NCBI GenBank assembly: GCA_958295895.1 | Contig: CATQHI010000002.1 | Location: 248,001 to 312,000 of the forward strand | Origin: Saprospiraceae bacterium | GTDB lineage: Bacteria > Bacteroidota > Bacteroidia > Chitinophagales > Saprospiraceae | Reading direction: 5' to 3' | Length of the DNA: 64,000 bases | Shown here: piece after piece, positions 1 to 63,938 of the stretch | How the letters are laid out: every line of letters begins with the position of its first letter | Numbering within the stretch: position 1 is the stretch's first letter | Notes under the pieces: model-generated | Seen by the model: the letters and a program-made list of their open reading frames with translations, nothing else | Database searches by the model: none | What the model was told of the DNA's origin: nothing | Translations under genes and position numbers: made by a program

Positions 1-185
1 GTAAAGCGAAAACGCATCATTTAGTAGTAGAGTAGTTCGGTAGTAGGGTAGTCTGGGCGACGGAGGCCGAAAGCTACCGCTTAAATACTCCGCACCTGCG
101 GCCCCGCCCTATCACACCTACCACACCTCCAACGACCGTCTAACCAGCGAAGGGTCTACCCTGCAAGGTCTGACGAGCCGAAAGC
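1..185. other. Intergenic stretch with degenerate TAGTAG repeats
   Basis: No gene is seen. Positions about 20-56 hold a degenerate TAG/GTAGT simple repeat. An exact copy of the dispersed GC-rich 18-mer lies at 92-109. The strings CCGAAAGCTACC and CCGAAAGCCTACC occur on either side of it. The stretch lies downstream of the minus-strand proA. Confidence 0.5.
92..109 (+). repeat. Dispersed GC-rich 18-mer, copy 1 (exact)
   Basis: Exact match to the consensus GCACCTGCGGCCCCGCCC, intergenic. No start codon of a recognisable gene lies downstream on the same strand within the window. Confidence 0.8.
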
Positions 186-1448
186 CTACCTCACCTGTCC
201 ATCGCCCCGCACCAGCCACTTATAGCTCGTCAGCGCAGCCAGCCCCATGGGGCCCCGCGCGTGCAGTTTCTGCGTACTGATGCCGATCTCCGCCCCGAGC
301 TCGAACTGCCCCCCGTCGGTGAAGGCGGTGCTGGTGTTGACGTACACCACGGCCGCGTCGATCTCGCGCAGGTAGCGGGCCTGGTTGATCTCGTTGTCGC
401 TCACAATGCTCTCGCTGTGGCGGCTGCCGTAGCGGCTCACGTGGGCGATGGCTGCGTCGATATCGTCGACTACTTTGATGGAAAGGGCCATGCGTAGGAA
501 CTCCGTGCCGAACGATTCGGCCGTAGCGCGGTGCAGTAAGTCGGCGGGATACTGCCCCTCGAGCTGGGCGTAGGCAAGTTTGTCGGCGTAGACCTCGCAG
601 CGGTAGGTGGTGGCCAGGTCTGCTAGTAGGTCGTGCAGGTCAGCTAGGTGGGAACGGTGCAGCAGTAAGCAGTCCAGGGCGTTGCAGACGCTCACGCGGC
701 GGGCCTTGGCATTGGTGATGATGGCGCGCGCCCAGTCCAGGTTGGCCTGCTCGTCGACGTAGGTATGGCAGATGCCGGCGCCGGTCTCGATTACGGGCAC
801 GGTGGCGTGTTTACGCACGTAGTCGATCAGGCCCTGGCTGCCGCGGGGGATGATCACGTCGACCAGTCCGTCGGCGGTGAGGATGGGCAGCAGGGCCTCG
901 CGCTCGGCCGGGGCGAGGTAGCAGGCGGCGGGCAGTCCGGTATCCTGTAGCGCTCGGTCGATGAGTTCCTTAATGGCCTGATTACTGTCGGCGGCGTCGC
1001 GACTTCCCTTCAGTACCGTAGCATTGCCCGCCTTCAGGTTCAGCCCGAAGACGTCGAAGGTCACATTTGGTCGTGATTCAAAGACAATGCCGACTACGCC
1101 GATGGGTACGCTTACGCGGCTCAGTTGTAGCCCGTTAGCTAATCCGCGGTCTTCCAAAAGGGTGCCCAGCGGAGAGGGCAGGTCGGCCACCCGGCGCAAG
1201 TCAGCGGCGATGGCTAGTAGGCGGTCGGCATTCAGGAGTAGGCGGTCGTACTTCGGGTTGGTGGGTTCCATACGGGCCAGGTCGAGGGCGTTGGCGCGGA
1301 GTAGGGCGGGGATATTTTCTTCGGTGAGCTCGGCCAGGCGGCGTAGACAGGCGTTCAGCTTTTCCACGGGCAGGCGGTTGAGCAGGTGGGCGGCGGCGCG
1401 CAGGTGCAGGAGTGTAGCGGGAAGGGCGGTGGGGGCGGCAACTGTCAT
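186..1448 (-). CDS. proA: Glutamate-5-semialdehyde dehydrogenase (gamma-glutamyl phosphate reductase)
   Basis: Cytoplasmic enzyme that reduces gamma-glutamyl phosphate to glutamate-5-semialdehyde with NADPH, the second step of proline synthesis. The 420-residue product matches the usual family length. It carries the aldehyde-dehydrogenase-fold signatures VFESRPNVTFD near residue 122 and SVCNALDCLLLH with the catalytic Cys at about 255. The frame stays open upstream to 1538, but the extra 30 residues run through a hairpin repeat and look non-coding, so the ATG at 1448 is chosen. No proB is adjacent. Residues 14-20 (LHLRAAA) are encoded by a sequence resembling the dispersed 18-mer. Confidence 0.95.
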   Translation of the reverse strand: MTVAAPTALPATLLHLRAAAHLLNRLPVEKLNACLRRLAELTEENIPALLRANALDLARMEPTNPKYDRLLLNADRLLAIAADLRRVADLPSPLGTLLEDRGLANGLQLSRVSVPIGVVGIVFESRPNVTFDVFGLNLKAGNATVLKGSRDAADSNQAIKELIDRALQDTGLPAACYLAPAEREALLPILTADGLVDVIIPRGSQGLIDYVRKHATVPVIETGAGICHTYVDEQANLDWARAIITNAKARRVSVCNALDCLLLHRSHLADLHDLLADLATTYRCEVYADKLAYAQLEGQYPADLLHRATAESFGTEFLRMALSIKVVDDIDAAIAHVSRYGSRHSESIVSDNEINQARYLREIDAAVVYVNTSTAFTDGGQFELGAEIGISTQKLHARGPMGLAALTSYKWLVRGDGQVR

Positions 1449-1520
1449 GGCGGCGGGGTGTTGTAGGGGGGCTGATACGGTCTGGTAAAATACTATTCCT
1501 ATAGCAGTCTGCCCGTTCAG

Positions 1521-1570
1521 CGCAGCCGGAGGCTGCATTTTGCTGGCGCTGCCGGAGGCAGCATTGTACT
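1521..1570. repeat. REP-like double hairpin upstream of mce
   Basis: Two adjacent GGA-loop hairpins, GCAGCC-GGA-GGCTGC at 1522-1536 and GCTGCC-GGA-GGCAGC at 1549-1563, followed by ATTGTACT. The reverse complement of the second arm matches the hairpin after purN (3825-3848), with changes that keep the stem paired. It sits between the divergent proA and mce genes. Confidence 0.6.
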
Positions 1571-1576
1571 ATGTGT

Positions 1577-3237: not shown

Positions 3238-3245
3238 CCGGTGAC

Positions 3246-3253
3246 TACCTTCG
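3246..3253 (+). promoter_or_regulatory. -7 box of purN
   Basis: TACCTTCG, a close match to the Bacteroidota -7 box TAnnTTTG, six bases before the purN ATG. No convincing -33 TTTG is seen. Confidence 0.4.
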
Positions 3254-5989: not shown

Positions 5990-6997
5990 TTAGGGAATAG
6001 TCTTCAACACCGTATACCGCAGCACGGTTTCCAGCACCAGCAGCAGCAGGCCCAGCCCCAGGAAGATCCCGAACCGCTCCTCGTACCGCTTGAAGACCGT
6101 GGTCTCGATCTCCGTCTTTTCCAACTCATCGATGTAATCGTAGATCGACTCCAGCTCCTCGGTATCCCGCGCCCGGAAGTAGCGCCCGTTAGTCTCCTCG
6201 GCGATGTAGGCCAGCAGCTTATCGTCTACCGTGCCCCGCGTCGGCTTAAAACGGTAGCGCCCACCGCCGATCGGTGCGGAGGGCATCAGGGTTTCCTCCC
6301 CACTACCCACCCCGATGGTGTACACCCGGATACCGAATTTACGTGCAATCTCAGCCGCTACCTCAGGCTTGTGTCGGTCACCGGCGTTGTTCTCTCCATC
6401 CGTCAGCAGGATGATGATCTTACTCACCGCCTCGCTATCCTTGAGCCGGTTGATGGCCGTCTCCAGCCCCAGCCCGATGGCCGTCCCGTCCGTAATCTCC
6501 CCCATCTGTAACTCGCTGATAAAGCGGTCGATGATCTGCTTATCCACCGTTAGCGGCGCCTTCGTGTAGGCCTCCCCCGCGTAGGCCACTAGGCCGATTC
6601 GGTCAAATTCCCGCCGGCTCACGAAGTCCCGCGCTACATTCTTAGCCACCTCTAGTCGGTTGGGCGTGAAGTCCTGCGCCCCCATGCTCGTCGATAGGTC
6701 CATGGTGAGCACGATATCGATGCCCTCAGCCGTCACCGATTCCTCGCTCAGGTCCAGCCGCGGCCGGGCCAGCGCGATGATCATCAGCACCAGCGCCGCT
6801 ACCTGCAGCAGGGGCAGGAAGGGCCGTAGCGCACTCCGCCAGCTCGTAAGTCCATCCACTGACCGCGTACTCGGCAGGCGCAGACTCACCAGCCGCTCCC
6901 CCGCCCGCCGTTGGTTCCACACGTACAGCAGCACGGGCAGCAGCACCAGCGGCAGCAACCAGGAATACACGAAGCTGAATTGATTCCACCAGCCCAT
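5990..6997 (-). CDS. batA: BatA-like von Willebrand factor A membrane protein
   Basis: 335-residue membrane protein with N-terminal segments at about 10-27 and 62-80, a VWA domain with MIDAS MDLSTSMGAQD near residue 99 and DGTAIGLGL providing the third loop, and a C-terminal membrane helix. It resembles its neighbour BatB but is a separate paralog. Its ATG overlaps the stop of the upstream BatD-like gene (TGATG), showing a tight operon. Functional assignment beyond the Bat family is not possible. Confidence 0.9.
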   Translation of the reverse strand: MGWWNQFSFVYSWLLPLVLLPVLLYVWNQRRAGERLVSLRLPSTRSVDGLTSWRSALRPFLPLLQVAALVLMIIALARPRLDLSEESVTAEGIDIVLTMDLSTSMGAQDFTPNRLEVAKNVARDFVSRREFDRIGLVAYAGEAYTKAPLTVDKQIIDRFISELQMGEITDGTAIGLGLETAINRLKDSEAVSKIIILLTDGENNAGDRHKPEVAAEIARKFGIRVYTIGVGSGEETLMPSAPIGGGRYRFKPTRGTVDDKLLAYIAEETNGRYFRARDTEELESIYDYIDELEKTEIETTVFKRYEERFGIFLGLGLLLLVLETVLRYTVLKTIP

Positions 6998-7950
6998 CAG
7001 TCGACTTTTTCAGTAGACACCGCCTCCACCCGCGTGGTTTCCCGCACGAAGTCGCGCACCCGTTGTAATCCCCGGGGGTGTAGGTCTTCCGCCGGCGTGG
7101 CTTTGGCAAATTTTACTAGGTCGGATAGTTGCAAAAGCTCACTCAGCTCCTCACGTTGCTCCCGGTTCAACTCCGCGCGGTTGCCCAGTGCCTGCGTGAT
7201 CTGCCGCGTCGTCATCTCCAGGGCGGGCAGGTCAAAGCGCGCCTCCAGGTACGTCCGCAGGATGCGCGTCAGCTCCACGTAGTAGGCATCGGTCCGCCCG
7301 GCCTGCCACAGTTTTTTAGCCTCCAACTCGTCTAGCGCCGTCAGGGCGCGCACGTGGGCGGGGGGAGGGGGCGGGGCCGCAGGTGCGGGTTTGGTCGCGC
7401 GGCGCCGATATTCCCGGTAGCCTAGTCCAACGAGGAGTAGCCCCAGCAGTGCCAGTACCCACCAGTAGTCCAGCAGGTTGCGTGGCTCCTCGATGATCGG
7501 CTTGATGGGCAGGATATCATCCTCAGCGGAGACTACGGCGCCGCGTACAGTGAGCAGAAAGTCGGTGGTAAAGGCCGTATCCCGTAGCCCCATCGCATCC
7601 TCGTAATACACGGGCAGCGGCTGGATGGTCACGTAGCCCGTATCGAAGCTGGTGATGAGTAGGCGTTGCTCCAGCAGTAGCTCCGGGGTCTCGGCTACGG
7701 TACGCAGCTCCTCGTCCTTGATCACCTCCACGCCCGGCATGGCATTCAGGATCGCCGGGTCCAGCGGCAGCACCTTTGTCCCGGGAGGCGCGGAGATATT
7801 TACGTCCAGGTAGATCTGGTCACCGATGGTGATCTCCGTCCGCGCCAGTTCCGCGCGCACATTGACGTTGCGGTTTGTCGACTGCTGGGCCCCCATTCCG
7901 CCTGCAATCGGCAACAGAGCAGTCAGCAAAAAAAGATGGCGCAGCGGCAT
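6997..7950 (-). CDS. BatD-like short membrane protein
   Basis: First gene of the Bat cluster, 317 residues. A signal peptide (MPLRHLFLLTALLPIAGGMGAQ) is followed by a periplasmic beta-rich domain like the N-terminal modules of BatD, one membrane helix (residues about 162-178, YWWVLALLGLLLVGLGY), and a cytosolic helical domain (LTALDELEAKKLW..., residues about 200-300). The open frame begins further upstream, but the ATG at 7950 starts the signal peptide. The Pro/Ala linker after the helix is encoded by an exact copy of the dispersed 18-mer. Confidence 0.8.
   Translation of the reverse strand: MPLRHLFLLTALLPIAGGMGAQQSTNRNVNVRAELARTEITIGDQIYLDVNISAPPGTKVLPLDPAILNAMPGVEVIKDEELRTVAETPELLLEQRLLITSFDTGYVTIQPLPVYYEDAMGLRDTAFTTDFLLTVRGAVVSAEDDILPIKPIIEEPRNLLDYWWVLALLGLLLVGLGYREYRRRATKPAPAAPPPPPAHVRALTALDELEAKKLWQAGRTDAYYVELTRILRTYLEARFDLPALEMTTRQITQALGNRAELNREQREELSELLQLSDLVKFAKATPAEDLHPRGLQRVRDFVRETTRVEAVSTEKVD
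7369..7386 (-). repeat. Dispersed GC-rich 18-mer, copy 2 (exact, in coding sequence)
   Basis: Exact consensus on the minus strand inside the BatD-like gene, read as Ala-Pro-Ala-Ala-Pro-Pro in the linker after the membrane helix. Confidence 0.85.
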
Positions 7951-7984: not shown

Positions 7985-9160
7985 TCACCTCTGGTCGTCA
8001 TACAGCAACTCCTCCAGCCGGTGCCGCGCCACGCCAAAGCGTTGCTTCACGCCTTCCCACTGCACCTGCGCCCCCGCCCGGTTGGTTGTACCTGGCTGCT
8101 TGACGGCCGTGATCATCACGTTTTTAGCGGTGTGCTCCAGGGGGATGAACTCGAAGAGCTTAGTAGCGTAACCCGCGCCCTGAAGGTAGAGCGCCCGCAG
8201 TCCATCAGTGACCATGGCCGCCTGCCGCTCCAGGAGGATGCCGTTGTCGAGCAGGGGTTTGAGATCGTTGGGGACGACCATATCGCGGCGTACCTGCTTC
8301 TGGCAGCAGGGAGCTACGATCATAATTTCAGCCTCGGCCTGAATACCCTGGTAGAGCGCATCATCGGTGGCCGTGTCGCAGGCATGCAGGGCGATGAGGA
8401 GGTCGATGCGGTCGGGCTGGTAGGTGTCGATATAGCCCTCTTCAAAATGCAATTGCGTGAAGTGGTTGTCGGCGGCAATATGGCGGCACTTGTCCACCAA
8501 CTGCGGACGTAGCTCCACCCCCGTGACCCGTACGTCGTAGCCTAATGTGTTGACCAGATGATCGTAGAGCGCAAAGGTGAGGTAGCCGCTGCCCGAGCCC
8601 ATATCCACCACCTGCGCCCCGGCCGGCAGGGGGTGATCGCGCAGGAGGCCGTCGACGATCTCGACGAACTTATTGATCTGCTTGTACTTGCGGCGGCCGG
8701 CGGCGGTGACCTCTCCGGCGGCAGTAGTGATGCCCAGGGCGTGGAGGTAGGGCCGGTCGGCCGCGATGGCGCGGAACTTCTCCCGGTCGTGGGTCACGGC
8801 GGCCTCGCGGTGCTGGGGAGCTTGCTCGCGCAGACGAGCGTTGCCCTTGCGGGACTGCATGATCGACAACTGCTCGTCGAGGCTGAAGAGATCGGCGTTG
8901 TAGAAGTTTTCGGATAGCTCGTCCTGCAAATACTTTAGTCCCTCCGTGTAGGCAAAGTTTTTGGCCTCCTCCCGGTCGACGTAGCGGTGGGTGATCTGCA
9001 GCTGGTACTCTCCCTTGAGTTCCACGGGGCGTGCGTAGAGGTTACGTGGCAGCTCCGCGTCTTTCCGCCGGGGCTTACTCAACGTCAGTTTAACCAGGCG
9101 ACCGAACAGGGTGGCGCGGCGGGCGGTCTCCCAAAACTGTGTGCGAGCATCATCTGGCAT
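7985..9160 (-). CDS. SAM-dependent methyltransferase (class I)
   Basis: 391-residue cytosolic protein. Residues about 165-290 form the class I methyltransferase core: the SAM loop VVDMGSGSGYLTFAL, then GVELRPQLVDKCR, and LLIALHACDTATDDAL with the Cys-containing IVAPCCQ motif that follows. This pattern resembles the methyltransferase group related to TRM13/RlmN-like RNA modifiers, but the substrate is unknown. The start is the ATG at 9160, four bases after a good -7 box. A dispersed repeat copy encodes AGAQVQ near the C-terminus (8062-8079). Confidence 0.82.
   Translation of the reverse strand: MPDDARTQFWETARRATLFGRLVKLTLSKPRRKDAELPRNLYARPVELKGEYQLQITHRYVDREEAKNFAYTEGLKYLQDELSENFYNADLFSLDEQLSIMQSRKGNARLREQAPQHREAAVTHDREKFRAIAADRPYLHALGITTAAGEVTAAGRRKYKQINKFVEIVDGLLRDHPLPAGAQVVDMGSGSGYLTFALYDHLVNTLGYDVRVTGVELRPQLVDKCRHIAADNHFTQLHFEEGYIDTYQPDRIDLLIALHACDTATDDALYQGIQAEAEIMIVAPCCQKQVRRDMVVPNDLKPLLDNGILLERQAAMVTDGLRALYLQGAGYATKLFEFIPLEHTAKNVMITAVKQPGTTNRAGAQVQWEGVKQRFGVARHRLEELLYDDQR
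8062..8079 (+). repeat. Dispersed GC-rich 18-mer, copy 3 (in coding sequence)
   Basis: 17 of 18 matches, near the 3' end of the methyltransferase gene, in opposite orientation to the gene. Translated in the gene's frame it gives AGAQVQ. Confidence 0.75.
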
Positions 9161-9164: not shown

Positions 9165-9192
9165 CAAAGGTAAGGGGCGGGATCGCAGGTGC
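9165..9192 (-). promoter_or_regulatory. Promoter of the methyltransferase gene built on the dispersed repeat
   Basis: The minus strand reads GCACCTGCGATCCCGCCC (9192-9175), then TACCTTTG (9172-9165), four bases, then ATG. The -7 box matches the Bacteroidota consensus TAnnTTTG. The short distance to the ATG predicts a leaderless or nearly leaderless message. The repeat occupies the promoter spacer. Confidence 0.6.
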
Positions 9193-14575: not shown

Positions 14576-14593
14576 GCACCTGCGGCCCCGCCC
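14576..14593 (+). repeat. Dispersed GC-rich 18-mer, copy 4 (exact, two bases before an ATG)
   Basis: Exact consensus preceded by TT, ending two bases before the ATG at 14596, in the same orientation as the gene. Confidence 0.85.
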
Positions 14594-15054: not shown

Positions 15055-16322
15055 ACGAGATCGCCCTGAAGCATACGGGTGCGTGCTTCCCGTGCTTTGT
15101 CTACACCAAAGAGCAGTAGTATCCCCAGAATGCCGAAACTGCTCACCGTGAAAATCGAGACGACGTAGCCGAAGTGCTCCGCCAGTTGAAAGCCCAGCAC
15201 GGGACTCAGGATGAAGGCCAGGGAGTAGCTCGCAGAAAGCACACCCAGGTACTCTCCACGCCGTACCGGGGGGGCATGTTTAGCTACGTAGGTGCTGGTA
15301 AAGGGCATAAAGAGGATCTCGCCAAGGGTGATGAGCACAATCCAGAGTACGACTAGTGCATAACCCAGCGGTACGGCAAATGGGAGTAGGAAGTAACCGG
15401 CCAGGATTAGGGTAGTACCCCCCAGCATGACGTAGAGCGGGCGGTAGCGGCGGTCGGCCAGGTACACCAGCGGCATCTCTACGGCCACGATGAGTACGCC
15501 GCTGATGGTCAGGAGCAGGCCGAACTCCCCCTCCGTGTAGCCATGGTCGGTCAGGTAGACCGGGATGGTGCTGAAAAACTGGAAAAAGCAGGTGATTACG
15601 CAGGTATTGGCAAGGATGAGGTAGACCAGCCAGGGCTGGCGTAGGGCGGGGCGGGTCTCACGCAGGGGTTGGTTTTGGGCGGGGGACGCTGGTGCGGGGT
15701 CCTCCTCGAGGGGCCGCGCGGTCTCATCGGCGGGAAGAGTGATTAGGAAGAGGGCGGCGGCGAGCAGGAAGGTGAGCCCGTCGGCCCAGAAGAGGCTTTC
15801 GTAGCCGTACAGTCCGATGAGCAGACCGCCCAGGGCAGGGCCGATGGAGAAGCCCAGGTTAGCGGCCAGGCGCTGGAGTCCGTAGGCCTGAGTGAGGTGT
15901 TCGGGGTCGGCGTAGATGGCAATGGCCGCCCGGTTAGCGGGGCGAAAGGCATCGGCGGTGACCGAGGTAAAGAAGACCAGGATGCAGAGGGGCCAGAAGG
16001 CGGTGACCTGTCCGATAAGAATATGTAGGATGCCCGCCGTGATCAGGCTGAAGACCATGATGTGCCAGGAGCCGTAACGGTCATTGAGCAGTCCGCCGAC
16101 GTAGTTGCCCACGATGCCGCCGGCCCCGAAGGCGCCCATGACCCAGCCGGCGTCGGTGGCCGTATAGCCCATGGAGTTGACGAGGTAGACGGAGAGGAAG
16201 GCGACCACCATGGCCCCGCTGCGGTTGACGACCATGACCAGGCTGAGCAGCCAGACCTTGCGGGGCAGGCCGGCGAAGGCCCGCACGTAGAGCTGGGTCA
16301 GTCGGGGAAGAAAGGCGGCCAT
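15051..16322 (-). CDS. MFS transporter
   Basis: 423-residue major facilitator with about twelve membrane helices. The first half has GNYVGGLLNDRYGSWH, the typical loop 2-3 signature; the second half has YLADRRYRPLYV. The order MFS-1 half, hydrophilic loop (EEDPAPASPAQNQ near residue 210), second half is standard. It resembles the multidrug-efflux type, substrate unknown. The central loop is encoded by a near copy of the dispersed repeat (15677-15695). Confidence 0.87.
   Translation of the reverse strand: MAAFLPRLTQLYVRAFAGLPRKVWLLSLVMVVNRSGAMVVAFLSVYLVNSMGYTATDAGWVMGAFGAGGIVGNYVGGLLNDRYGSWHIMVFSLITAGILHILIGQVTAFWPLCILVFFTSVTADAFRPANRAAIAIYADPEHLTQAYGLQRLAANLGFSIGPALGGLLIGLYGYESLFWADGLTFLLAAALFLITLPADETARPLEEDPAPASPAQNQPLRETRPALRQPWLVYLILANTCVITCFFQFFSTIPVYLTDHGYTEGEFGLLLTISGVLIVAVEMPLVYLADRRYRPLYVMLGGTTLILAGYFLLPFAVPLGYALVVLWIVLITLGEILFMPFTSTYVAKHAPPVRRGEYLGVLSASYSLAFILSPVLGFQLAEHFGYVVSIFTVSSFGILGILLLFGVDKAREARTRMLQGDLV
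15677..15695 (-). repeat. Dispersed GC-rich repeat, copy 5 (in coding sequence)
   Basis: GCACCAGCGTCCCCCGCCC on the minus strand, with two substitutions and one extra C against the consensus. It encodes Ala-Pro-Ala-Ser-Pro-Ala in the central loop of the MFS protein. Confidence 0.55.
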
Positions 16323-19636: not shown

Positions 19637-20746
19637 ATGGACCCCTTACGCGTAGGTATTTCGATCGGAGACGTCAACGGCATCGGCCCGGAGGTGATCG
19701 TAAAAGCCCTGCGTAACGACGCTATGCTGGACTTCTTCACCCCCGTCATCTACGCCACCCCGGAGGCCTTTTCCGCCTTCGCCACGGGAGATGACGCCTT
19801 TGAATTTACCGCGGTCGCAGGTGCAAAGGAGGCTAGCGCGGGCCGGATCAACCTCGTGGCCCCCTGGGACGAACCCCTGGAGTATGCGCCCGGTCGGGCC
19901 ACCGCCGCGGGAGGCCGTGCCGCCGCCCAGTCGCTTGAGTGTGCCGTAGCCGACCTAAGGGCGGGCAGCATCCAGGCCCTGGTCACCGCCCCCATCAACA
20001 AATCGGTGATGCCCACCGATGCCTTCCCCTTTCCCGGCCACACCGAGATGCTTACCACCCGCCTGGAAGTGGAAGAAAGCCTGATGTTCCTGGTCACGGA
20101 TGAGCTACGCGTGGGCGTGGTCACCAACCACATCCCCGTTTCCGAGGTAGCCGCCGCCGTCACTCAGGAAAAGATCGTAGCCAAGCTCAAGATTATGGAC
20201 CGGAGTCTACGTTCCGACTTCGGCATCGTAAAACCCCTGATCGGTGTCCTGGCCCTGAACCCCCACGCCGGCGACGAGGGCCGCATCGGTAATGAGGATG
20301 CCACCGTGGTGCGCCCCGCCATCGAGCAGGCCAAGAAGGAGGGCATTTTGGCCATGGGCCCCTACCCCGCCGACGGATTTTTCGGCAGTGGCAACTTCCA
20401 GAAGTTCGACGCTATACTAGCCATGTACCACGACCAGGGGTTGATTCCTTTTAAGGCGCTCAGCTTCGGTAAGGGGGTCAATTTCACCGCCGGACTGCCG
20501 GCCATTCGCACCTCACCCGACCACGGTACGGCCTACGATCTGGTGGGACAGGATAAGGCCAGCCCCGATTCCTTTCTGGCTGCCCTCTTCCTGGCACGCG
20601 ATACCTACCGCAACCGCCACCAGCACCAGGAGGATACCGCCAACCCCCTGGAAAGCCGCATGCACCTGGTCTACAAGCGCCGCTCCGACAGCGACGGCGA
20701 CCGCAGGGGAAAGTCCCGTAAGGGCGGCGGCCGGTTGAAGCGTTAA
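19637..20746 (+). CDS. pdxA: 4-hydroxythreonine-4-phosphate dehydrogenase
   Basis: NAD-dependent oxidative decarboxylation of 4-phosphohydroxy-L-threonine in pyridoxal phosphate synthesis. 369 residues, slightly long because of a basic tail (SDGDRRGKSRKGGGRLKR). The metal-binding histidines appear in FPGHTEML, ALNPHAGDEG and MYHDQGLIPFK; the N-terminal GDVNGIGPEV is typical. The ATG at 19637 removes 50 residues read from the upstream promoter region. Confidence 0.96.
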   Translation: MDPLRVGISIGDVNGIGPEVIVKALRNDAMLDFFTPVIYATPEAFSAFATGDDAFEFTAVAGAKEASAGRINLVAPWDEPLEYAPGRATAAGGRAAAQSLECAVADLRAGSIQALVTAPINKSVMPTDAFPFPGHTEMLTTRLEVEESLMFLVTDELRVGVVTNHIPVSEVAAAVTQEKIVAKLKIMDRSLRSDFGIVKPLIGVLALNPHAGDEGRIGNEDATVVRPAIEQAKKEGILAMGPYPADGFFGSGNFQKFDAILAMYHDQGLIPFKALSFGKGVNFTAGLPAIRTSPDHGTAYDLVGQDKASPDSFLAALFLARDTYRNRHQHQEDTANPLESRMHLVYKRRSDSDGDRRGKSRKGGGRLKR

Positions 20747-23779: not shown

Positions 23780-25222
23780 CTACAGCCCCGCCGTGCACAG
23801 GTCGCGCATCAGGCCGTATATCAGGGGGTTCAACTCCGTCCCCCGCAGCGTGTGGTTGTTGACCGCGATGTGGTACACCAGCCGCCGCCCGTCCGGCCGC
23901 TCGACGTAGCCCGCGTAGGCCCGCACCCCATCTATCGTACCGCTCTTACCCCACACCCGGCCCTCGGCTACGGTACCCTTCAGCACGTTGCGCATACTGC
24001 CCGTGCGGCCGGCCAGTGGGATGCTCCGGCGCCAGCGGGCTTCCCCCGCCCGGTTCACGAGTAGGGCCGTCATCAGCGCGGGCGGGAAGTAGTTGCGGGG
24101 CGAAAGGCCACTACCATCCTGTAGTTGCAGTCCATCGGTGGTGATCCCGTGCTCCTCCAGCCAGTCCACGATCACCTCCGTCAGTTCCTGCTCACCGCCC
24201 CCCCGTACCCGGTACACCTCCCGTAGCAGCGCCTCGGCGAAGAGGTTGTTGCTGGTCAGATTGGTCCGGTCCACGAGCTCGGCCAGGGGGGGCGATTGGG
24301 ACGTGACGAGCAGCTCTCCGGTATCCGCCGCTAGGGGACCTACCACTAGGTGAGTGGTGGGTGGCTGTACCACCTCAATGCCCGCCGCCCGCAGCGCCGT
24401 GGTCAGTAGCTGGGCCACCCACAGCGGCGGATCGGGCACGCTGCCCCGGATCCGAAACCGCCCCGTGCCCACCGGTATACTGCCCCGAATGAAGTAGTCG
24501 TAGGTGAAGGGTGATCCGAAGATGTAAGCCTGGTCCCCACTACCCCGGGGCCCACTCCGCAGTTCATTCGTGAAAGTCAGCCCCGGTACCACCGGGTCGG
24601 TACTCAGCACGGGCGGCGTGCTTCCCTCCTGGGGCCGCTGCGCGAAGGAGAGGGTGTAGCTGTTTTCGTTGAAGTTCAGCCCGTAGGCCCCGGCTCCATA
24701 GTAGTTACCTAGGTCCGCCCAGGGCCAGCCCCGCCCCGCCCCGTCGGTCCCGAGGTAGCTGCCATCGCCGACCACCGCCCCGGTGATGCGTCTGATGCCC
24801 CGCTGCTGTACCGCGGCGACCCACCGGTCGAGTACCGCCTCCACGCCCGGCACCCCGTCCATCATGTTGCTGCCCAGGCTGGGATCTCCCCCGCCCACTA
24901 CGTAGAGGTTACCGCGTAGCGCCCCGTTGTCTACTGCTCCACCGGCGATCAGTTTGGTTTCGAAGCGGTAATCGGGGCCGAGTACGTCCATGGCCACCGC
25001 CGTAGTGAGGAGCTTTTGGGTGGAGGCCGGAATACAGGCGAGCTCGGGCTGATAACTGGCCACCCGCTCTCCCGTGCTCGCATCGCGTACGTCGACGGCC
25101 CGCCACGAGTGGGCCAGCACCTGCGTCCCCGCGAACTTATCGACCACATCCTGCACGCCCGTCTGCCCCGTAAGCGAGTAAGTCCAGAGCAGTAAGAGCG
25201 GCAGTAAGAGACGTAACGGCAT
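23780..25222 (-). CDS. dacB: D-alanyl-D-alanine carboxypeptidase/endopeptidase (PBP4 type)
   Basis: Periplasmic class C penicillin-binding protein that trims peptidoglycan peptides. 480 residues with an N-terminal signal peptide (to about TGQTG). Motifs: SxxK in PASTQKLLTT, SxN in TSNNLFAEAL and KTG as WGKSGTIDG. The long insert between SxxK and SxN is typical of this class. A variant of the dispersed repeat sits eight bases before its ATG. Confidence 0.94.
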   Translation of the reverse strand: MPLRLLLPLLLLWTYSLTGQTGVQDVVDKFAGTQVLAHSWRAVDVRDASTGERVASYQPELACIPASTQKLLTTAVAMDVLGPDYRFETKLIAGGAVDNGALRGNLYVVGGGDPSLGSNMMDGVPGVEAVLDRWVAAVQQRGIRRITGAVVGDGSYLGTDGAGRGWPWADLGNYYGAGAYGLNFNENSYTLSFAQRPQEGSTPPVLSTDPVVPGLTFTNELRSGPRGSGDQAYIFGSPFTYDYFIRGSIPVGTGRFRIRGSVPDPPLWVAQLLTTALRAAGIEVVQPPTTHLVVGPLAADTGELLVTSQSPPLAELVDRTNLTSNNLFAEALLREVYRVRGGGEQELTEVIVDWLEEHGITTDGLQLQDGSGLSPRNYFPPALMTALLVNRAGEARWRRSIPLAGRTGSMRNVLKGTVAEGRVWGKSGTIDGVRAYAGYVERPDGRRLVYHIAVNNHTLRGTELNPLIYGLMRDLCTAGL

Positions 25223-25230: not shown

Positions 25231-25248
25231 GGGCGGGTGCGCCGGTGC
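25231..25248 (-). repeat. Dispersed GC-rich repeat, copy 6 (divergent, before dacB)
   Basis: GCACCGGCGCACCCGCCC on the minus strand, preceded by TT, 15 of 18 matches. It lies eight bases before the dacB ATG, in the gene's orientation. Confidence 0.55.
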
Positions 25249-29382: not shown

Positions 29383-30114
29383 TTAGTACGCCACCCCACT
29401 CAAAAAGAGCCCCTCCGGCCGCGCCTGCCCCGTCCCGAGCCGCTGGCCCGACGCTAAGGCTTCGGTGATCTCCACTACCGTCACCTCCCCCGCCGATACC
29501 CGCAGCAGCTGGTGTACCAGGATACGGATCATGCCCCGCAGGAAACGGTTGGCGACGAAGCGAAAACGGTAGCGACCGGGCCCTTCCAGATGCAGACTTG
29601 CCTCGCGTAACTCGCAGGTGGTGGTGGTGTGGCGGTCGGGCGTGAGGCAGAAGGCACGGAAGTCGTGGGGGCCGGTGAGAATTTCCAGCGCGGCGTTGAT
29701 TCGGTCGGCATCCAAACTAGGAAGGTCGTAGTAACTACTCACTACCGCCAGGAAGGGGTCGGGGTGGGTATGGAGACGGTAGTCATAGGTGCGGGCCCGC
29801 GCATCGTAGCGCACGTGGGCGGTGGGGGCTACCTCCCAAATGCGGTAGAGCACGATATCGTCCGGTAGCTGCTTATTCATCACGAACAGCCAGTTGTCGC
29901 GAATGGGCTCCGGCGTATCGAAGTGGAGGTAGTACGCGGAGGCGTGGACGCCGGCGTCGGTACGACCGCAGCCAACGACTTTGATCGATTGACGTTGCAC
30001 CTGCGACCCCGCCCGCTCGATGGTTTGTTGGACGGTGGGTACGTTGCCGCTCTGTCGCTGCCAGCCGCGGTAGTGGGTGCCGCGGTAGGCTAGGTGGACG
30101 AAGTAGCGCGGCAT
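29383..30114 (-). CDS. truA: tRNA pseudouridine(38-40) synthase
   Basis: Makes pseudouridine at positions 38-40 of tRNA anticodon arms. 243 residues, normal length. The catalytic Asp53 lies in VVGCGRTDAGVHASAY; the end has FLSGVAY. In the helix before this motif, ERAGSQVQ stands where the family usually has a leucine-rich ALxxLL-type helix; these residues are encoded by a copy of the dispersed 18-mer. The ATG at 30114 excludes a heptamer repeat that the longer frame would translate. Confidence 0.95.
   Translation of the reverse strand: MPRYFVHLAYRGTHYRGWQRQSGNVPTVQQTIERAGSQVQRQSIKVVGCGRTDAGVHASAYYLHFDTPEPIRDNWLFVMNKQLPDDIVLYRIWEVAPTAHVRYDARARTYDYRLHTHPDPFLAVVSSYYDLPSLDADRINAALEILTGPHDFRAFCLTPDRHTTTTCELREASLHLEGPGRYRFRFVANRFLRGMIRILVHQLLRVSAGEVTVVEITEALASGQRLGTGQARPEGLFLSGVAY
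29997..30014 (+). repeat. Dispersed GC-rich 18-mer, copy 7 (in truA)
   Basis: 17 of 18 matches and preceded by TT. It lies opposite to the gene and encodes AGSQVQ in truA, close to the AGAQVQ encoded by copy 3. Confidence 0.8.
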
Positions 30115-30266: not shown

Positions 30267-31652
30267 ATGCACGTAGCTATCATTGGTAACGGCATCGCCG
30301 GAGTCACCGCCGCCCGCTGGCTACGTAAGCTCAGCGATACCGTCCGCATCACCATGATCTCGGCCGAGAGCGACTTCTTTTTCTCGCGTACGGCGCTGAT
30401 GTACGTCTATATGGGCCACCAGCGCTGGGAGGACCTGATGCCCTACGAGCCCTTCTTCTGGAAAAAGAACCGGATCGACCTGCTGCGGCAGTACGTCGAG
30501 CGGGTCGATACCGGGGGTAAGGTGTTGCACTGTGGCGACGGCAGCACGCTGCAGTACGATAAGCTCATCCTGGCTACCGGCAGCAGCTGGAATAAATTTG
30601 GCTGGCCGGGGCAGGACCTGCGGCGCGTGGGCGGCATGGTCAGTGCCCAGGACCTGAACCTGCTGGAGGAGATCACGCCGGAGGTGAGGTCGGCCGTCAT
30701 CGTCGGGGGTGGACTGATCGGTGTCGAGCTGGCGGAGATGCTGCACAGCCGGCACATCCACGTTACCCTGCTGGTGCGCGACCGCAGTTACTGGAGCGGT
30801 ACCCTTCCCCCAGAAGAGAGCGAAATGGTCAGCCGCCACATCCTTAGCCAGGGCATCGACCTGCGCCACGATACGGAGCTGGGGGAGATCGTAGACGACG
30901 GTGCCGGGGCCGCGGGTGCAGTGATCACCAAAAGCGGAGAGCGTATCGAATGCCAGTACGTAGGCCTCACCGCGGGCGTGCATCCTAACATTGACTTTTT
31001 GAGTAATGCCGATGGGTTGGAAACAAAGAAGGGTATCTTGATCGATAACTACCTGGAAACCTCGGTGCCGGACGTCTACGCCATCGGCGACTGCGCCCAG
31101 GTACGGGAGCCGCGGCCCGGCCGCACCCCCATCGAGGCGGTCTGGTACACCGGCCGTATAATGGGTGAGACGGTAGCTTACAATATCCTCGGCCGACCGG
31201 TGGCCTACGACCCGGGCATCTGGTTCAACTCCGCCAAATTTATCGACATCGAGTACCAGGTCTACGGCGAGGTGCCGGCGGACGGCCGCAAGGGGATGAG
31301 TACCATTTACTGGGAGCACCCTGGGGGAGAGAAATCCGTGCGCATTAACTACGACGGCGCCAGTGGCCGCGTGCTAGGCTTCAACCTGATGGGCATCCGC
31401 TACCGCCACGAGGTCTGTGAAAAGTGGATTGCCGACGGTACCCACGTCGAGGAGGTACTACAGAAAATGGGGATGGCCAACTTCGACCCCGAGTTCTATA
31501 AGCAGTACGAGGCCGAGGTCGTGGCCCGGTACAACCGCCAGACCGGCAGTAACCTACAACTGCGCCAGCAGCGTAGCCTGTCCGCCGCCCTCAGGTTTCT
31601 CGGCTTTAAATCGCGGACGCCCCGCACAACTTCCCCCCAAGATGCCCAGTAA
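30267..31652 (+). CDS. FAD-dependent pyridine nucleotide-disulphide-type oxidoreductase
   Basis: 461-residue flavoprotein. Two Rossmann folds are seen: VAIIGNGIAGVTAARWL at the N-terminus for FAD and VIVGGGLIGVELAEML near residue 143 for NAD(P)H. TSVPDVYAIGDCAQV is the C-terminal FAD motif. There is no redox-active CxxC, so it resembles ferredoxin or rubredoxin reductases and NirB-like domains. The gene overlaps the downstream membrane Fe-S gene by 11 bases; the pair probably moves electrons from NAD(P)H to a membrane Fe-S carrier. Confidence 0.88.
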   Translation: MHVAIIGNGIAGVTAARWLRKLSDTVRITMISAESDFFFSRTALMYVYMGHQRWEDLMPYEPFFWKKNRIDLLRQYVERVDTGGKVLHCGDGSTLQYDKLILATGSSWNKFGWPGQDLRRVGGMVSAQDLNLLEEITPEVRSAVIVGGGLIGVELAEMLHSRHIHVTLLVRDRSYWSGTLPPEESEMVSRHILSQGIDLRHDTELGEIVDDGAGAAGAVITKSGERIECQYVGLTAGVHPNIDFLSNADGLETKKGILIDNYLETSVPDVYAIGDCAQVREPRPGRTPIEAVWYTGRIMGETVAYNILGRPVAYDPGIWFNSAKFIDIEYQVYGEVPADGRKGMSTIYWEHPGGEKSVRINYDGASGRVLGFNLMGIRYRHEVCEKWIADGTHVEEVLQKMGMANFDPEFYKQYEAEVVARYNRQTGSNLQLRQQRSLSAALRFLGFKSRTPRTTSPQDAQ

Positions 31653-33622: not shown

Positions 33623-33640
33623 GGGCGGGGCCGCGGGTGC
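33623..33640 (-). repeat. Dispersed GC-rich 18-mer, copy 8 (just after a stop codon)
   Basis: GCACCCGCGGCCCCGCCC on the minus strand, 17 of 18 matches. It begins two bases after the stop codon of the Fe-S gene, in opposite orientation to that gene. Confidence 0.75.
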
Positions 33641-37842: not shown

Positions 37843-37869
37843 GCACCCGCGTCCCCGCCCCTACCTTTA
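37843..37869 (+). promoter_or_regulatory. Promoter of the S1/P1 nuclease gene built on the dispersed repeat
   Basis: The repeat GCACCCGCGTCCCCGCCC (37843-37860, 16 of 18 matches) is followed by the -7 box TACCTTTA at 37862-37869 and, four bases later, the ATG. The arrangement is almost the same as at 9192-9160. Confidence 0.6.
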
Positions 37870-43759: not shown

Positions 43760-43777
43760 GCACCCGCGGCCCCGCCC
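43760..43777 (+). repeat. Dispersed GC-rich 18-mer, copy 9 (upstream of katG)
   Basis: GCACCCGCGGCCCCGCCC, 17 of 18 matches, about 128 bases before the katG ATG and in the gene's orientation. Confidence 0.75.
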
Positions 43778-43781
43778 CCCG

Positions 43782-43840
43782 TCCCTAAGTCCCCCCATCC
43801 CTAAGTCCCCCCATCCCTAAATCCCCTGTCCCTATTCCCC
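43782..43840. repeat. Tandem TCCCTAAGTCCCCCCA repeats
   Basis: Two near-perfect 16-bp units and two or three degenerate ones (TCCCTAAATCCCC, TCCCTATTCCCC) follow the dispersed repeat between katE's neighbour and katG. Confidence 0.7.
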
Positions 43841-43893: not shown

Positions 43894-46245
<2,352 letters not shown>

Positions 46246-49145: not shown

Positions 49146-49170
49146 GCACCTGCGCACGCGCCCAACTTTG
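49146..49170 (+). promoter_or_regulatory. Promoter of hflX with a dispersed-repeat spacer
   Basis: GCACCTGCGCACGCGCCC (49146-49163, 15 of 18 matches) overlaps the -7 box CAACTTTG at 49163-49170. The ATG follows 27 bases later. Confidence 0.5.
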
Positions 49171-54690: not shown

Positions 54691-54717
54691 TCACCTGCGG
54701 GCCCCGCCCTACTATTT
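54691..54717 (+). promoter_or_regulatory. Dispersed repeat and -7 box before the next lipoprotein gene
   Basis: TCACCTGCGGGCCCCGCCC (54691-54709) is followed by TACTATTT (54710-54717), three bases before the ATG at 54721. It has the same arrangement as the other repeat-bearing promoters. Confidence 0.5.
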
Positions 54718-58042: not shown

Positions 58043-59017
58043 TTAGTTAATGAGCGCGGCGACCAATAAGGCCAAAGCCGCCGCAAAAAGCAGCAGGTGG
58101 TAAAACTCCGCCCGCGCCGCCTCCTGCCGCACCAGCCAGAGCCCGAAGAGCATCCCCAACGGCACCACCAGCACCTGCGCCGCCGCCGCCCGCACCGTAG
58201 CCATGCAGGCCACCACCAGAGGAGCAAACAGCAGCACCCAGTACACGAAGGATACGTTCTTACTTCCCTCGATGTTGAGCAGCAGCCTACCGCGCTCGCT
58301 GGTCAGCAGCACGATCAGTAGCGGGAGGGCTAGTAGGGCAAGACCGCCCAGTACGTAAGGCATCTCCGTACCAAAATATAGAAATCCAAAACTGCCCACC
58401 TGTAGCGTGTACCACTCCAGAAAATCACCCCGCCAGTACGCGTAAGTACCCGCCAAGAAGTGAGCGATCACCACCCCGCCCAGCAACTGTCCGATCGCCC
58501 GCAGATCGGCCGTACGGAAGATGCTGATGCCCACGATGAAGCAGGGAATGAACACCAAATAAGCGGGCACAAGCAGGGAAGCCAGCCCCAACCACCAGCC
58601 GGCGTTGAAGCGGGCTATTTCCATCGAGCTGCCCTTGTACGTACTACTTAGCGCACCGATCGCCAGCAGCAAAAACAAGTGGGTGAGTAACTGCGGATCG
58701 AAGAAGTGAAAGGCCGGACAAAGCCCCCACACCAGCACCACCCCCAGGCCGGGAAACTGCGTCACGGTGCGCGCAAAACGGTAGCTACTGCAGATGGCGT
58801 TGGCCACGATACCGGCTAGAGCCACCAGTACCGAAGGGGCCAGCGTGGCCAACCAGTAACTCCGGTTAACCCCCGCCATCAGCCAGCTGCCATAATAAGT
58901 GTGGTCTCCCGTGACCGCTGGTACGTCGAAGAAAAACACCGGCAGCTGCAACAGCAGCGCGTAGCCGAACAGAAACAAGCTCGCGTACGACTGGTTAGTG
59001 CGAAACAACGAAAGCAT
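58043..59017 (-). CDS. Multi-span membrane protein of the Bacteroidota DUF6427 type
   Basis: 324 residues with about nine hydrophobic segments. The opening MLSLFRTNQSYASLFLFGYALLL resembles a group of Bacteroidota-specific membrane proteins of unknown function, which I tentatively place in DUF6427. It lies between mscL and batD on the same strand; only one base separates it from batD. No catalytic motif is apparent. Confidence 0.72.
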   Translation of the reverse strand: MLSLFRTNQSYASLFLFGYALLLQLPVFFFDVPAVTGDHTYYGSWLMAGVNRSYWLATLAPSVLVALAGIVANAICSSYRFARTVTQFPGLGVVLVWGLCPAFHFFDPQLLTHLFLLLAIGALSSTYKGSSMEIARFNAGWWLGLASLLVPAYLVFIPCFIVGISIFRTADLRAIGQLLGGVVIAHFLAGTYAYWRGDFLEWYTLQVGSFGFLYFGTEMPYVLGGLALLALPLLIVLLTSERGRLLLNIEGSKNVSFVYWVLLFAPLVVACMATVRAAAAQVLVVPLGMLFGLWLVRQEAARAEFYHLLLFAAALALLVAALIN

Positions 59018-59018
59018 C

Positions 59019-60749: not shown

Positions 60750-61486
60750 CACCACCCCTTCGTTCCGGTACAGCCCTCGCGGTCGGCCTGCCGTAGTCGG
60801 CTCAGCGTCCGTTTTTCCTCCTCGGCGGCGATGCCCAGCTGGCGTTCGGCCTCCTCCCGGCTCATTTGGGGGTTAGCCCCGGCGTTGGCGATCGACTCGC
60901 CGGGCGTCTCCTGCTGGTTCTTGGCGGACTGCTGGTCGTTAGAATTCCCGTCACCGTCCTGCGGTTGTTGCTGGGCGTCCTGTTGTTGCTGCTCGCCGTT
61001 CTGTCCGTCCTGCCCCTGTTGCCCCTGCTGCTGTTGTTGCTGCTGCCCGTCCTGCTGCTCCTGGTCCTGCTGATCTTGTTGGTCCTGTTGCTGCTGTTGT
61101 TGTTGCTGCTGTTCCTGCAGGTCGCGGATCGCCTTGGTCAGGTTATACTTCGTCTCCTGATCATCGGGGGTGATGCGCAGGCTATTCTTGTAGGCTTCCA
61201 CGGCCTGCTCGTAGTTCTCCTGGCGGTAGTAGCTGTCCCCCAGGTTGCGGTAGGCGCGCGAGCGTACGTCGGGGTCTTCGGCCAGTCCGGCGGCCTCCTC
61301 GTAGCGTTTGGCGGCCTCGCTGTACTCCCCGTTTTCGTAGAGGGCATTGCCTAGGTTGTAGTTCCCCTTGGCGCTATTGTCGGCGGTCACGGCATCGGCG
61401 TATTCCTGTTCGGCCTGGGCGTAGTTTTTGTCGTGGTAGGCCTGGTCGCCGCGGCGTAGAGCCCGGTGTGCTTCCTGGGCGTGCAT
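60749..61486 (-). CDS. batC: BatC-like TPR protein with poly-Gln tract
   Basis: Tetratricopeptide-repeat protein. Three TPR-like units follow AHRALRRGDQAYHDKNYAQAE, then a Gln/Asp tract about 50 residues long and a helical C-terminus. The frame begins in the middle of a signal peptide. The real start is probably the ATG at 61541 (MRQSIFTVLLL), which reaches this frame if one base is removed from the five-G run at 61493-61497. That run belongs to a copy of the dispersed repeat. So either the base is an error or the gene is newly broken. Confidence 0.85.
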   Translation of the reverse strand: MHAQEAHRALRRGDQAYHDKNYAQAEQEYADAVTADNSAKGNYNLGNALYENGEYSEAAKRYEEAAGLAEDPDVRSRAYRNLGDSYYRQENYEQAVEAYKNSLRITPDDQETKYNLTKAIRDLQEQQQQQQQQQDQQDQQDQEQQDGQQQQQQQGQQGQDGQNGEQQQQDAQQQPQDGDGNSNDQQSAKNQQETPGESIANAGANPQMSREEAERQLGIAAEEEKRTLSRLRQADREGCTGTKGW

Positions 61487-61488
61487 CA

Positions 61489-61507
61489 GGGCGGGGGCCG
61501 CAGGTGC
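61489..61507 (-). repeat. Dispersed GC-rich repeat, copy 10 (in the batC signal peptide)
   Basis: Consensus plus one extra C. Without that base it reads CTCGPAL in frame between the signal-peptide start and the AQEAHR of BatC. Confidence 0.75.
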
Positions 61508-61580
61508 AGAGTAAGAGGACGGTGAAGATGGACTGGCGCATGGATACTGCGAAGGTACGGTAGGGACTGGGGATGGGGGA

Positions 61581-62353
61581 CTAGCTCAGGAAGCCCCGCA
61601 CCAGCCCCTCCAGCTCCCCCGGCCGCTCCGCATGCACCCAGTGCCCCGCCCCGGCCACCGTAACCAACTGCGCCCGCGGAAAGAGCTCCAGTACCCCCGG
61701 CCAGTCTATATCGCGGATATAGTCGCTCTTGCTACCTCGCACGAAGAGCGCCGGTCCGGGGTAGGGTCTGCCCCGGATGGCCGACCGGCGCGATCAGCTG
61801 CTCATAGTCCCGGTCCAGCACCTCCAGGTTCATGCGCCAGCGGAAGCCGGTATCGTCGCGGCGAGTGAGATTCTTGAGGAGGAACTGCCGTACGCCGGCA
61901 TCGGCTATGTGGGGTTGCATGACAGCATCAGCCTCGCTGCGATCGCTAAGCGTGGCGGGGGTCGAGAGCGTGCAGGGCGGCAAAGACATCGTCGTGGCCA
62001 CGGCCGTACTGGCGGGGAGCCATATCGACCACAATGAGTTTCTCGACGAGTGTGGGGTAGGTCAGCGCCGTCTGCATCGCCACCTTGCCACCCATGCTGT
62101 GGCCCAGCAGGTGACAGCGGTCGATGGTGAGGGTTTCGAGGAGTTCGGCTACGTCCTGCGCCATGAGGGGGTAGGTCATCTCGTCGGCGTGAGGAGAGCG
62201 GCCGTGGTTGCGTAGGTCTACGAGGATTACGGTGTAGTCGGAGGCCCCAGCGGCGGGCCAGGGTCTGCCAGTTGTCGAGGTTGCCGAATAGGCCGTGGAG
62301 GATGACTAGGTGGGGGGCCCGGAGTCTCCGTAGGTTTTGTGGTTGAGCTGCAT
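61581..62353 (-). pseudogene. Alpha/beta hydrolase with several frameshifts
   Basis: Fragments in three frames assemble into one serine hydrolase of about 255 residues: LVILHGLFGNLDNWQ near the start, VDLRNHGRSPH, the nucleophile elbow LLGHSMGGKVAM, LFVRGSKSDYI, and the C-terminal GAGHWVHAE. This resembles the YbfF/MenH-type esterases. Frame changes occur near 62310, 62245, 61955 and 61765, too many for a working gene unless the sequence contains errors. Confidence 0.7.
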
Positions 62354-62364
62354 GCTATAGGTTT

Positions 62365-62440
62365 AACCACAGAGTCGCACAAAGTGGGGCACAGAGTACT
62401 CGGTGTAACTCTGTGCGCTACTCCGTGCTACTCTGTGGTT
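62365..62440. repeat. 33-bp imperfect inverted repeat of CACAGAG type
   Basis: Arms at 62365-62397 and 62408-62440 pair at 28 of 33 positions around a ten-base loop. They begin AACCACAGAGT and end ACTCTGTGGTT and contain CACAGAGT again inside. It lies between the MscS and hydrolase genes and could form a long hairpin in either transcript. Confidence 0.8.
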
Positions 62441-63938
62441 TCAATTTGCTTTGCACCTGCGTCCCCGCCCCCCCTGCTTAGCCTCTTCTGCGGGTTTGAC
62501 CGAGTGGCCATTCGAGGACTGGGTGGTGATGAGGCGGTCCAGACCCTTGCCCGCCACGGATCCAGAGGTCGCGCTGGGGGAAGGGAATCTCGACGCCGCG
62601 CTCGCGGGAACATCTTATCAATGGCGAAGCGGACGTCGCTCTTGATGTCCTCGATGCGGATGAGGTCGCGCGACCAGAAGAGGACGTCGAAATCGAGGGA
62701 GGAGTTGCCGAAGTCGATGAAGCGCACGATGGGCTTCGGGGTCTTCAGGATGCGGGCGTGCTCATCCACCACCTTGAAGAGGATCTCGCGCACCAGCTCG
62801 GTATCGGAGCCGTAAGCCACACCCACCTTGACGTGAAAGCGGGCCTTGCGCTCCACGTGGCTCCAGTTGACGACGTTCTCGCCGATGAGCTTGGAGTTGG
62901 GGACGAAGATGATGATGTCGTCGCGGGTCTCTACCGTAGCCGTGCGGGCACCGATTTTGCGCACCGTACCCACTTCATGATCGGCCACCTCCACCACATC
63001 GCCCCACCATGACGCTGCGCTCGAAGAGGATGATGACGCCGCAGATCAGGTCGTTGAAGGTCTGTTGTAGCCCGATACCGATACCTACTAAGAGTGCCGC
63101 CGCCCCCGTCCATAGTACCAGCAGGTCGAAGCCCGCCGCTTGCAGCACCAGCAGCACGCCGACCACGTAGACGAAGTAAGTGATAAGCCGATTGATGGCG
63201 TACTGGCTGCCCGTATCGACCTTCGAGCGGCGCGGTAGTAGGTTCCTAGGACCAGGTTAGTGATGGTCCATGAGCAACAGTCGCAGAAAGAGGAAGATGG
63301 CCGTTGGCCTGCGCCAGATTACCCAGCGTAATCAGGATACTGTCCTCGTTGATGGGCTCGCTAAAGGGATAGAGTACGTACTTACTCAGGCCCGTATCCT
63401 GTAGTATGATGAGGATGGCCAGGGTATACATCAGGGGGCGCACGGCCCGGAAGCGCTCCGTGGTGTCCCGCTCCGCGTCGCGGGTCTGCTGCGTGGCCGT
63501 ATTCTGTAGGTGCGTATGGTGGTAGCGCTGTACGAGCAGCTCCTCGATCAAAATATCGAGCACATTGGCCACGATGAAGGCCAGTAGCGCCCTTGACAAT
63601 CGTGCTGATGCGGTATGGTCAGGTACACCGGTGGCCCGTCCTCGGTCGAGGCCTGCTGGATGGGCTTCGTCGATGAAGGTGATGTCGAGTGTGAAGAATG
63701 CGTAGAATAGCAATGACCAGTAGGCTCACCAGCGAAAAGCGGATCACGGCCCGCACCCGGGTACGGTTCTTCTCCGACACCGACTCGCGGCCGTAGTACC
63801 AGGGCAGCACCTTGCGCAACAGCAGGGGAGTTCGCCCCCAGCAACAGGAAGGCCGCCAGGCCGATCAGCAGTAACTGATGGGCCGTGACCGTAAAGCCAT
63901 TCACGTCGAGCAGCAGGATGTCCCCGTAATCTGTTCAT
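62441..63938 (-). pseudogene. MscS-family mechanosensitive channel with many frameshifts
   Basis: Fragments in all three minus-strand frames add up to a protein of nearly 500 residues: N-terminal helices (NGFTVTAHQLLLIGLAAFLLLG), then GTGAAALLVGIGIGLQQTFNDLICG-like pore helix sequence (visible as TGAAALLVGIGIGLQQTF), GTVRKIGARTATVETRDD, IIIFVPNSKLIGENVVNWS, and KARFHVKVGVAYGSD. These are the MscS beta and alpha/beta domains. At least six frame changes occur. The ATG at 63938 is a guess. Confidence 0.7.
62453..62470 (+). repeat. Dispersed GC-rich 18-mer, copy 11 (3' end of the MscS gene)
   Basis: GCACCTGCGTCCCCGCCC, 17 of 18 matches, preceded by TTT. It overlaps the last codons of the MscS frame, in opposite orientation to the gene. 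Confidence 0.8.

Follow-up and report, generated by a model that had tools for sequence, protein, structure and literature searches.

The stretch of DNA analysed here (the window: 64,000 nucleotides, positions 248,001 to 312,000 of contig CATQHI010000002.1 in the Saprospiraceae bacterium assembly GCA_958295895.1) carries an 18-mer that recurs between genes, in front of gene starts and inside genes, in both orientations (Table 1). An initial annotation of the window had listed ten exact or near-exact copies and five looser ones, and had held chance to be an unlikely explanation. All ten were recovered with the positions and strands it had assigned to them; among the looser copies, those at 25231 and 49146 held up as copies with three mismatches, those placed at 15677 and 61489 contain one extra C, and the one at 54691, with one extra G and a T replacing the first G, is absent from the 18-mer scan. 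Scanning the window with GCACCTGCGGCCCCGCCC yielded 16 copies at up to three mismatches, compared with 0.31 expected and a maximum of 2 in any of 100 dinucleotide shuffles, so that chance was rightly dismissed; a weight-matrix scan yielded 18 copies, to which the 54691 copy with its inserted base is additional. Four copies in these scans were missing from the first list (19807(-), 25117(+), 30902(-) and 58171(+)). The repeat is confirmed as real, and it is more extensive than first described.

Table 1. Copies of the 18-mer in the window. Gene positions come from a simple open reading frame (ORF) caller, with approximate start sites; dacB-like, truA-like and katG-like are names read from sequence. 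G009, G001 and G007 are other members of the genus (see text).
Position	Strand	Copy	Location	Same place in relatives
92..109	+	exact consensus	intergenic	
7369..7386	-	exact	sense in gene 6997-7896(-)	conserved in G009
8062..8079	+	copy	antisense in methyltransferase-like gene 7985-9160(-)	copy in G009; other dialect in G001 and G007
9175..9192	-	copy	14 bp upstream of start of methyltransferase-like gene 7985-9160(-); then TTACCTTTG	
14576..14593	+	exact	2 bp upstream of gene 14596-15054(+)	copy in G009
15678..15695	-	one inserted C	sense in gene 15051-16322(-)	
19807..19824	-	weak	antisense in gene 19637-20746(+)	
25117..25134	+	copy	antisense in dacB-like gene 23780-25222(-)	conserved in G009
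25231..25248	-	copy	8 bp upstream of dacB-like gene 23780-25222(-)	
29997..30014	+	copy	antisense in truA-like gene 29383-30114(-)	conserved in G009
30902..30919	-	copy	antisense in gene 30267-31652(+)	conserved in G009
33623..33640	-	copy	intergenic, directly past stop of 31642-33621(+)	
37843..37860	+	copy	13 bp upstream of gene 37874-38728(+)	
43760..43777	+	copy	intergenic, upstream of katG-like gene 43906-46245(+)	
49146..49163	+	copy	34 bp upstream of gene 49198-50409(+)	
54691..54709	+	degenerate, one inserted G	ORF start ATG at 54721	
58171..58188	+	weak	antisense in gene 58043-59017(-)	
61490..61507	-	one inserted C	3 bp upstream of gene 60749-61486(-)	copy in G009
62453..62470	+	copy	antisense in ORF 62428-62997(-)	conserved in G009

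Throughout the 4.77-Mb genome to which the window belongs (G000, the own genome), 814 copies occur at up to two mismatches, against 8 for a reversed-pattern control, and the exact general pattern occurs 758 times (control 1), whereas 246 further genomes from the class have 0–3 exact matches apiece. The initial annotation had proposed checking the repeat against composition-matched shuffles and against codon bias. The reversed-pattern control answers the former in favour of the repeat; as to the latter, the 452 kb scanned on the own contig contain 42 coding copies at up to two mismatches, whereas 30 synonymous-codon shuffles averaged 2.8 and never exceeded 6. The word is GC-rich and the genome about 60% GC, as an origin by chance or codon bias would have it, but window shuffles, the reversed-pattern control, exact-pattern counts and synonymous-codon shuffles all contradict such an origin, the likelihood of which is practically negligible.

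Among the 20 other Neolewinella/Lewinella genomes (G001 to G020, including the close and largely collinear relative G009), 17 hold 161–1135 copies and three, G001, G007 and G011, hold 4–34, whereas counts are 0–3 in 19 genomes from elsewhere in the family and order. At up to one mismatch, the general pattern occurs 383–1645 times in 18 of the 21 genus genomes including the own (controls 6–118); the counts in the remaining three are 70 vs 20 in G007, 10 vs 10 in G001 and 12 vs 4 in G011. The exact 20-mer was found at at least 79 loci in GTDB genomes, and the matches listed all belong to Neolewinella, Lewinella or metagenome genomes titled Lewinella or Bacteroidia; it occurs once in viral contigs. 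In 100 kb sampled from G023, which represents another genus of the family, no convincing dialect word appeared. By the GTDB matches listed and by the counts in the genus as compared with those in family and order, the scattered word belongs to the genus Neolewinella/Lewinella.

The motif of the own genome further includes C at position -4 and pyrimidines at -2 and -1, so that the element measures about 22 bp: C-n-Y-Y-GCACCtGCGgCC(C/G)CGCCC. The 18 core letters are mostly near-fixed, with change tolerated at positions 6, 10 and 13 (in G009 also at 11), and C is the commonest letter at -4 in 16 of 17 sampled genomes, G015 being the exception. The refined motif finds 123 sites in the 452 kb of the own contig, compared with 4 in the reversed sequence, and its score distribution is two-peaked, with near-perfect copies on one side and background on the other. 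Of these sites, 60 are intergenic, 33 lie antisense and 30 sense in genes; at up to three mismatches, 57 of 111 copies are intergenic where 19 would be expected, a threefold enrichment. Sense copies are over-represented near gene starts, 8 of 30 beginning in the first 75 nt (expected 7.6%; p 0.0014). At four places on contig C2, 225957(-), 336791(-), 378940(-) and 165387(+), the tag spells the in-frame end ..CTC(V/G)(R/P)AQ of signal-peptide-like starts.

The initial annotation had considered a promoter module. Such a module would have the copy occupy the stretch that separates a -33 TTG from a -7 box. A few copies are indeed so placed (window 9175), TT often precedes the copy, and copies before start codons had suggested such a promoter spacer. 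The consensus of the Bacteroidota sigma-A -7 box is TAnnTTTG; it starts 18–40 bp after 2 of the 60 intergenic copies (1.1% at random intergenic places), and 63 of the 123 copies, 30 sense and 33 antisense, lie within genes. The promoter spacer was dropped on the -7 box scan, and the module as a whole is highly unlikely. A recombination or chromosome-maintenance signal, either Chi-like or for segregation, would fit the many copies across contigs. However, Chi sites comprise 5–8 letters compared with about 22 in the element, and along the contigs listed the strands are mixed, so that the tag does not look polar; such a signal is accordingly quite unlikely, if slightly less so than the promoter module.

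How the coding copies came about can be read from G009, in which 36 of 53 are alignable (13 have no ortholog in the compared stretch and 4 fall outside the aligned part). Fifteen of the 36 are conserved, 16 have diverged without a gap and 5 with a gap; a stretch of the same length thus stands opposite 31 of the 36. The coding copies arose through substitution rather than insertion. A short mobile repeat, similar to a repetitive extragenic palindrome (REP) or a miniature inverted-repeat transposable element (MITE), had been another candidate of the initial annotation and would account for dispersal on both strands. It fails at the ungapped coding copies, to which this comparison is confined, and little sequence is conserved beyond the element, making a mobile repeat exceedingly improbable. 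At 41 aligned coding sites, selected for presence of the motif in one species and uncorrected for this, identity between the two species is 87% over the 14 specified letters, 58% over the 4 free ones and 72% over the flanks; for random coding windows it is 80% at the corresponding 14 places. Of the 41 copies, 26 have lost no more than one of the 14 specified letters, compared with 27% of random windows. The lower identity of the flanks (72% vs 80%) indicates that the copies sit in rather variable stretches, yet their specified letters are kept.

G001, G007 and G011, seemingly devoid of the tag, carry other dialects of it. Counting k-mers with no prior word gave ACCTGCGCTCCGCCGC for G001, CCTGCGCTCCGGCGC for G007 and CATTGCTACTTTG-nn-AGCCA for G011; in all three, C is the commonest letter at -4, and CCTGCG is the commonest form in G000, G001 and G007. 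Weight matrices built from a seed of their own for G001, G007, G011, G004 and G013 and from a G000-like seed for the other 12 find 19–129 sites in each of the 17 sampled genus genomes, against 0–11 in the reversed sequence, at densities of 0.16–0.35 copies per kb; in G003, G008, G010 and G018, which lie outside the dialect sampling, copies were counted. The excess is weakest in G019 (26 sites vs 11 in the reversed sequence), and the consensus is loose in G012, G015, G016 and G020. When 11-mers were ranked with no prior word, a word of the motif was among the top 12 over-represented ones in 13 of the 17 genomes; the top 12 contained none in G012, G014, G016 and G020, in which the general pattern is still in excess (422–1356 vs 25–84).

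A tree of two neighbouring proteins from 18 genomes, rooted at the midpoint and including 15 of the 17 genomes sampled for dialects, places G001 and G007 as sisters (support 100) and G011 alone on the longest branch; the GCACC form is present in both large clades. The dialects are consistent with this phylogeny. Single-letter dialect shifts are visible between sisters: core position 3 is T in G004 (GCTCC) but A in its sister G017, which retains GCACC. Individual sites also persist between species. Of 62 mappable G009 sites, 36 have an own-genome site at the same place and on the same strand (chance 0.3%), and an own site lies at the place of an other-dialect site for 3 of 17 sites in G001 and 4 of 14 in G007 (chance 0.2–0.5%), the offset being within 1 bp for 2 of the 3 and 2 of the 4, respectively, and 6–12 bp for the others. 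At window 8062 and at C2:225957, a copy is found in the same gene in all four species (own, G009, G001 and G007).

This set of features resembles that of the Neisseriaceae uptake sequences, including dialects that fit the phylogeny, and therefore favours a role in DNA uptake: the 18-mer is probably the core of a DNA-uptake-sequence-like tag of about 22 bp in Neolewinella/Lewinella, a reading to which we assign a probability of roughly 0.72. The initial annotation had named a DNA-uptake-like or protein-binding signal in one breath; the evidence favours the former, and a plain protein-binding site less so. Several properties by which uptake sequences are recognised are found, namely over-representation (814 vs 8 copies, and 758 vs 1 for the exact general pattern), occurrence on both strands and in coding as well as intergenic DNA, an origin of the copies by substitution, and competence genes. 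ComEC is encoded in all 21 genus genomes, DprA and HHH_3 proteins in 20 of 21 each, the genome in which DprA and an HHH_3 match are missing being 55% complete. Spacing of the sites on the own contig, more even than random (coefficient of variation 0.81; about 1% of random sets are as even), also speaks for uptake. Such a tag could act in the following manner: A surface protein would bind it on free double-stranded DNA and favour passage through the outer membrane, after which ComEC would take one strand inward and DprA and RecA would recombine it. Fragments holding the tag by chance would be taken up and recombined more frequently, and tags would hence accumulate where the sequence tolerates them, that is, in intergenic DNA, signal peptides and variable protein stretches on either strand. 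If the preference of the receptor drifts, the tags would follow and species dialects would form. The comEC gene itself (C2: 226083-228195) holds a tag at 226251, which is kept in G009.

A number of observations do not fit an uptake sequence easily. ComEC, DprA and HHH_3 proteins are widespread, being present in 10–11 of 14 control genomes, and prove nothing alone. A PF00437 search of the 21 genus genomes (other pilus families were not searched) recognised no motor ATPase of type IV pili: the maximum for this family of type IV pilus and type II secretion ATPases was 25.5 bits, 11 of the 21 genomes rising barely above the cut-off of 24.9 with frames of about 950 residues, and the only match that was inspected, that of the own genome, we take to be ClpB. 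Judged by PF00437, pilus machinery that includes a pilin receptor was thus not found. Nor did searches of the genus with DUF5689 and with a barrel of G011 (see below) reveal a receptor for the tag. In G009, the evenness of spacing is not significant (11% of random sets are as even). Close pairs (<200 bp) are not in excess, with 3 vs 6.5 expected in G000 and 4 vs 4.2 in G009, and inverted pairs within this distance, as in terminators, are not in excess in either genome. Tags are equally dense in syntenic DNA (0.270 per kb, 68 sites) and in non-syntenic DNA (0.274 per kb, 19 sites), the term 'acquired' standing here for DNA that is non-syntenic with one relative. Fewer tags in acquired DNA and inverted pairs serving as terminators, neither of which was seen, are typical of uptake sequences, not defining.

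Some of these points would suit the main rival explanation, according to which the copies are sites of an abundant chromosomal protein, nucleoid-associated or a global regulator, at about a thousand places, with the dialects arising from co-evolution of protein and site. Equal density in syntenic and non-syntenic DNA, both orientations with a fairly even spread and the threefold intergenic enrichment would all be accounted for, and 23 of 34 copies between co-directional genes are oriented with the genes (p 0.058). Copies within coding sequence and rewritten dialects are harder to account for in this way: about half of the copies lie in genes, often far from both ends, where a regulon would have its sites confined to gene starts (63 of 123 are within genes); near-perfect copies dominate the score distribution, while regulator sites are usually graded; and some thousand sites would be hard to rewrite with no drive, yet the dialects switched. 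A chromosomal protein is therefore an improbable, if the most serious, competitor.

For the uptake tag, the failure to recognise a pilus motor ATPase means that no pilin receptor is expected, and the reader of the tag is probably a pilus-free receptor. The element is thus filed as one that probably works like an uptake sequence, as opposed to a proven member of the class. Somewhat less firmly, we lean towards a complete uptake-sequence system with several dialects that would have evolved independently in Bacteroidota around a non-pilus outer-membrane receptor; the in-place conversion at window 8062 would then record co-evolution of receptor and tag.

Competence in Riemerella, according to one study (PMC8459023), involves ComEC, DprA, ComF and RecA together with four proteins that are not homologous to any known machinery; these include an outer-membrane protein and one with DUF5689. 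In G011 (contig C115; L270:1673-6601), a barrel-like gene lies directly before a gene for a lipoprotein-like product with three DUF5689 domains, an arrangement like that of the Riemerella competence operon; the pair is a reading of the sequence, and the CarboxypepD_reg and Plug (TonB) matches of the barrel are weak and below the Pfam cut-offs. DUF5689 was not found in the 20 other genus genomes, nor was a close match to the G011 barrel, and a Riemerella-type operon was hence rejected as the common receptor. G011, the sole genus member with this pair, is also the species with the most divergent dialect, which as a single case is a lead and no correlation: G011 may read its dialect via the Riemerella-type barrel and DUF5689 lipoprotein, and the other species via a replacement.

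Some bacteria use such tags to recognise the DNA of their own kind before uptake. To our knowledge, proven uptake sequences are confined to Neisseriaceae and Pasteurellaceae, and all of these sequences act together with type IV pili and a pilin receptor. The DNA uptake sequences (DUS) of Neisseriaceae share with the present tag about a thousand or more near-perfect copies, phylogeny-consistent dialects and a short shared core, but measure 10–12 bp compared with about 22 bp and belong to a different phylum (PMC3630211). Unlike them, the tag occurs at 0.16–0.35 copies per kb, with no pilus motor ATPase recognised and no excess of inverted pairs. The uptake signal sequences (USS) of Pasteurellaceae consist of a core and a looser flank, with copies in coding and intergenic DNA; the tag resembles them in these respects and differs in its sequence and in that its loose flank is 5' (C at -4, and YY at -2/-1 in G000). 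HIP1 of cyanobacteria, a highly iterated 8-bp palindrome, likewise has lineage-specific variants, whereas the tag is about 22 bp long and non-palindromic. Within the phylum, no uptake sequence for Bacteroidota turned up in listings and abstract openings of the open-access PubMed Central (PMC) literature searched. Riemerella columbina, a competent species from the same phylum as the genus considered here, prefers its own DNA, which agrees with the uptake reading; the study in question lists A/T-rich k-mers of up to 10 bp and leaves the signal open (PMC7965970).

If true, the uptake reading would add a third, unrelated case of uptake sequences, from a phylum in which little is still known of how DNA is imported across the outer membrane, and would point to repeated evolution of self-DNA tags. 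The tag could then serve as bait for isolating the importer, and the multi-dialect genus would suit the study of tag–receptor co-evolution and of species barriers to gene flow.

Other words stand above or beside the motif in the 11-mer rankings, among others in G005, G007, G012, G014, G016, G017 and G020. Strongly over-represented are AACCCCTGCAA and TCGCTTCGCTC in G005, GACTATAGACT in G013, CCGACGAAATC in G014 and GTCGGCCGACG in G017, which are perhaps terminators or local repeats. In G007, 120 kb contain 13 occurrences of TAGTCTTTTAG on the two strands taken together (expected 0.0). In the window, a short C-rich unit (about CCCTAAGTCCCCCCAT) is repeated at 43778-43837, directly after the 43760 copy and upstream of the katG-like gene.

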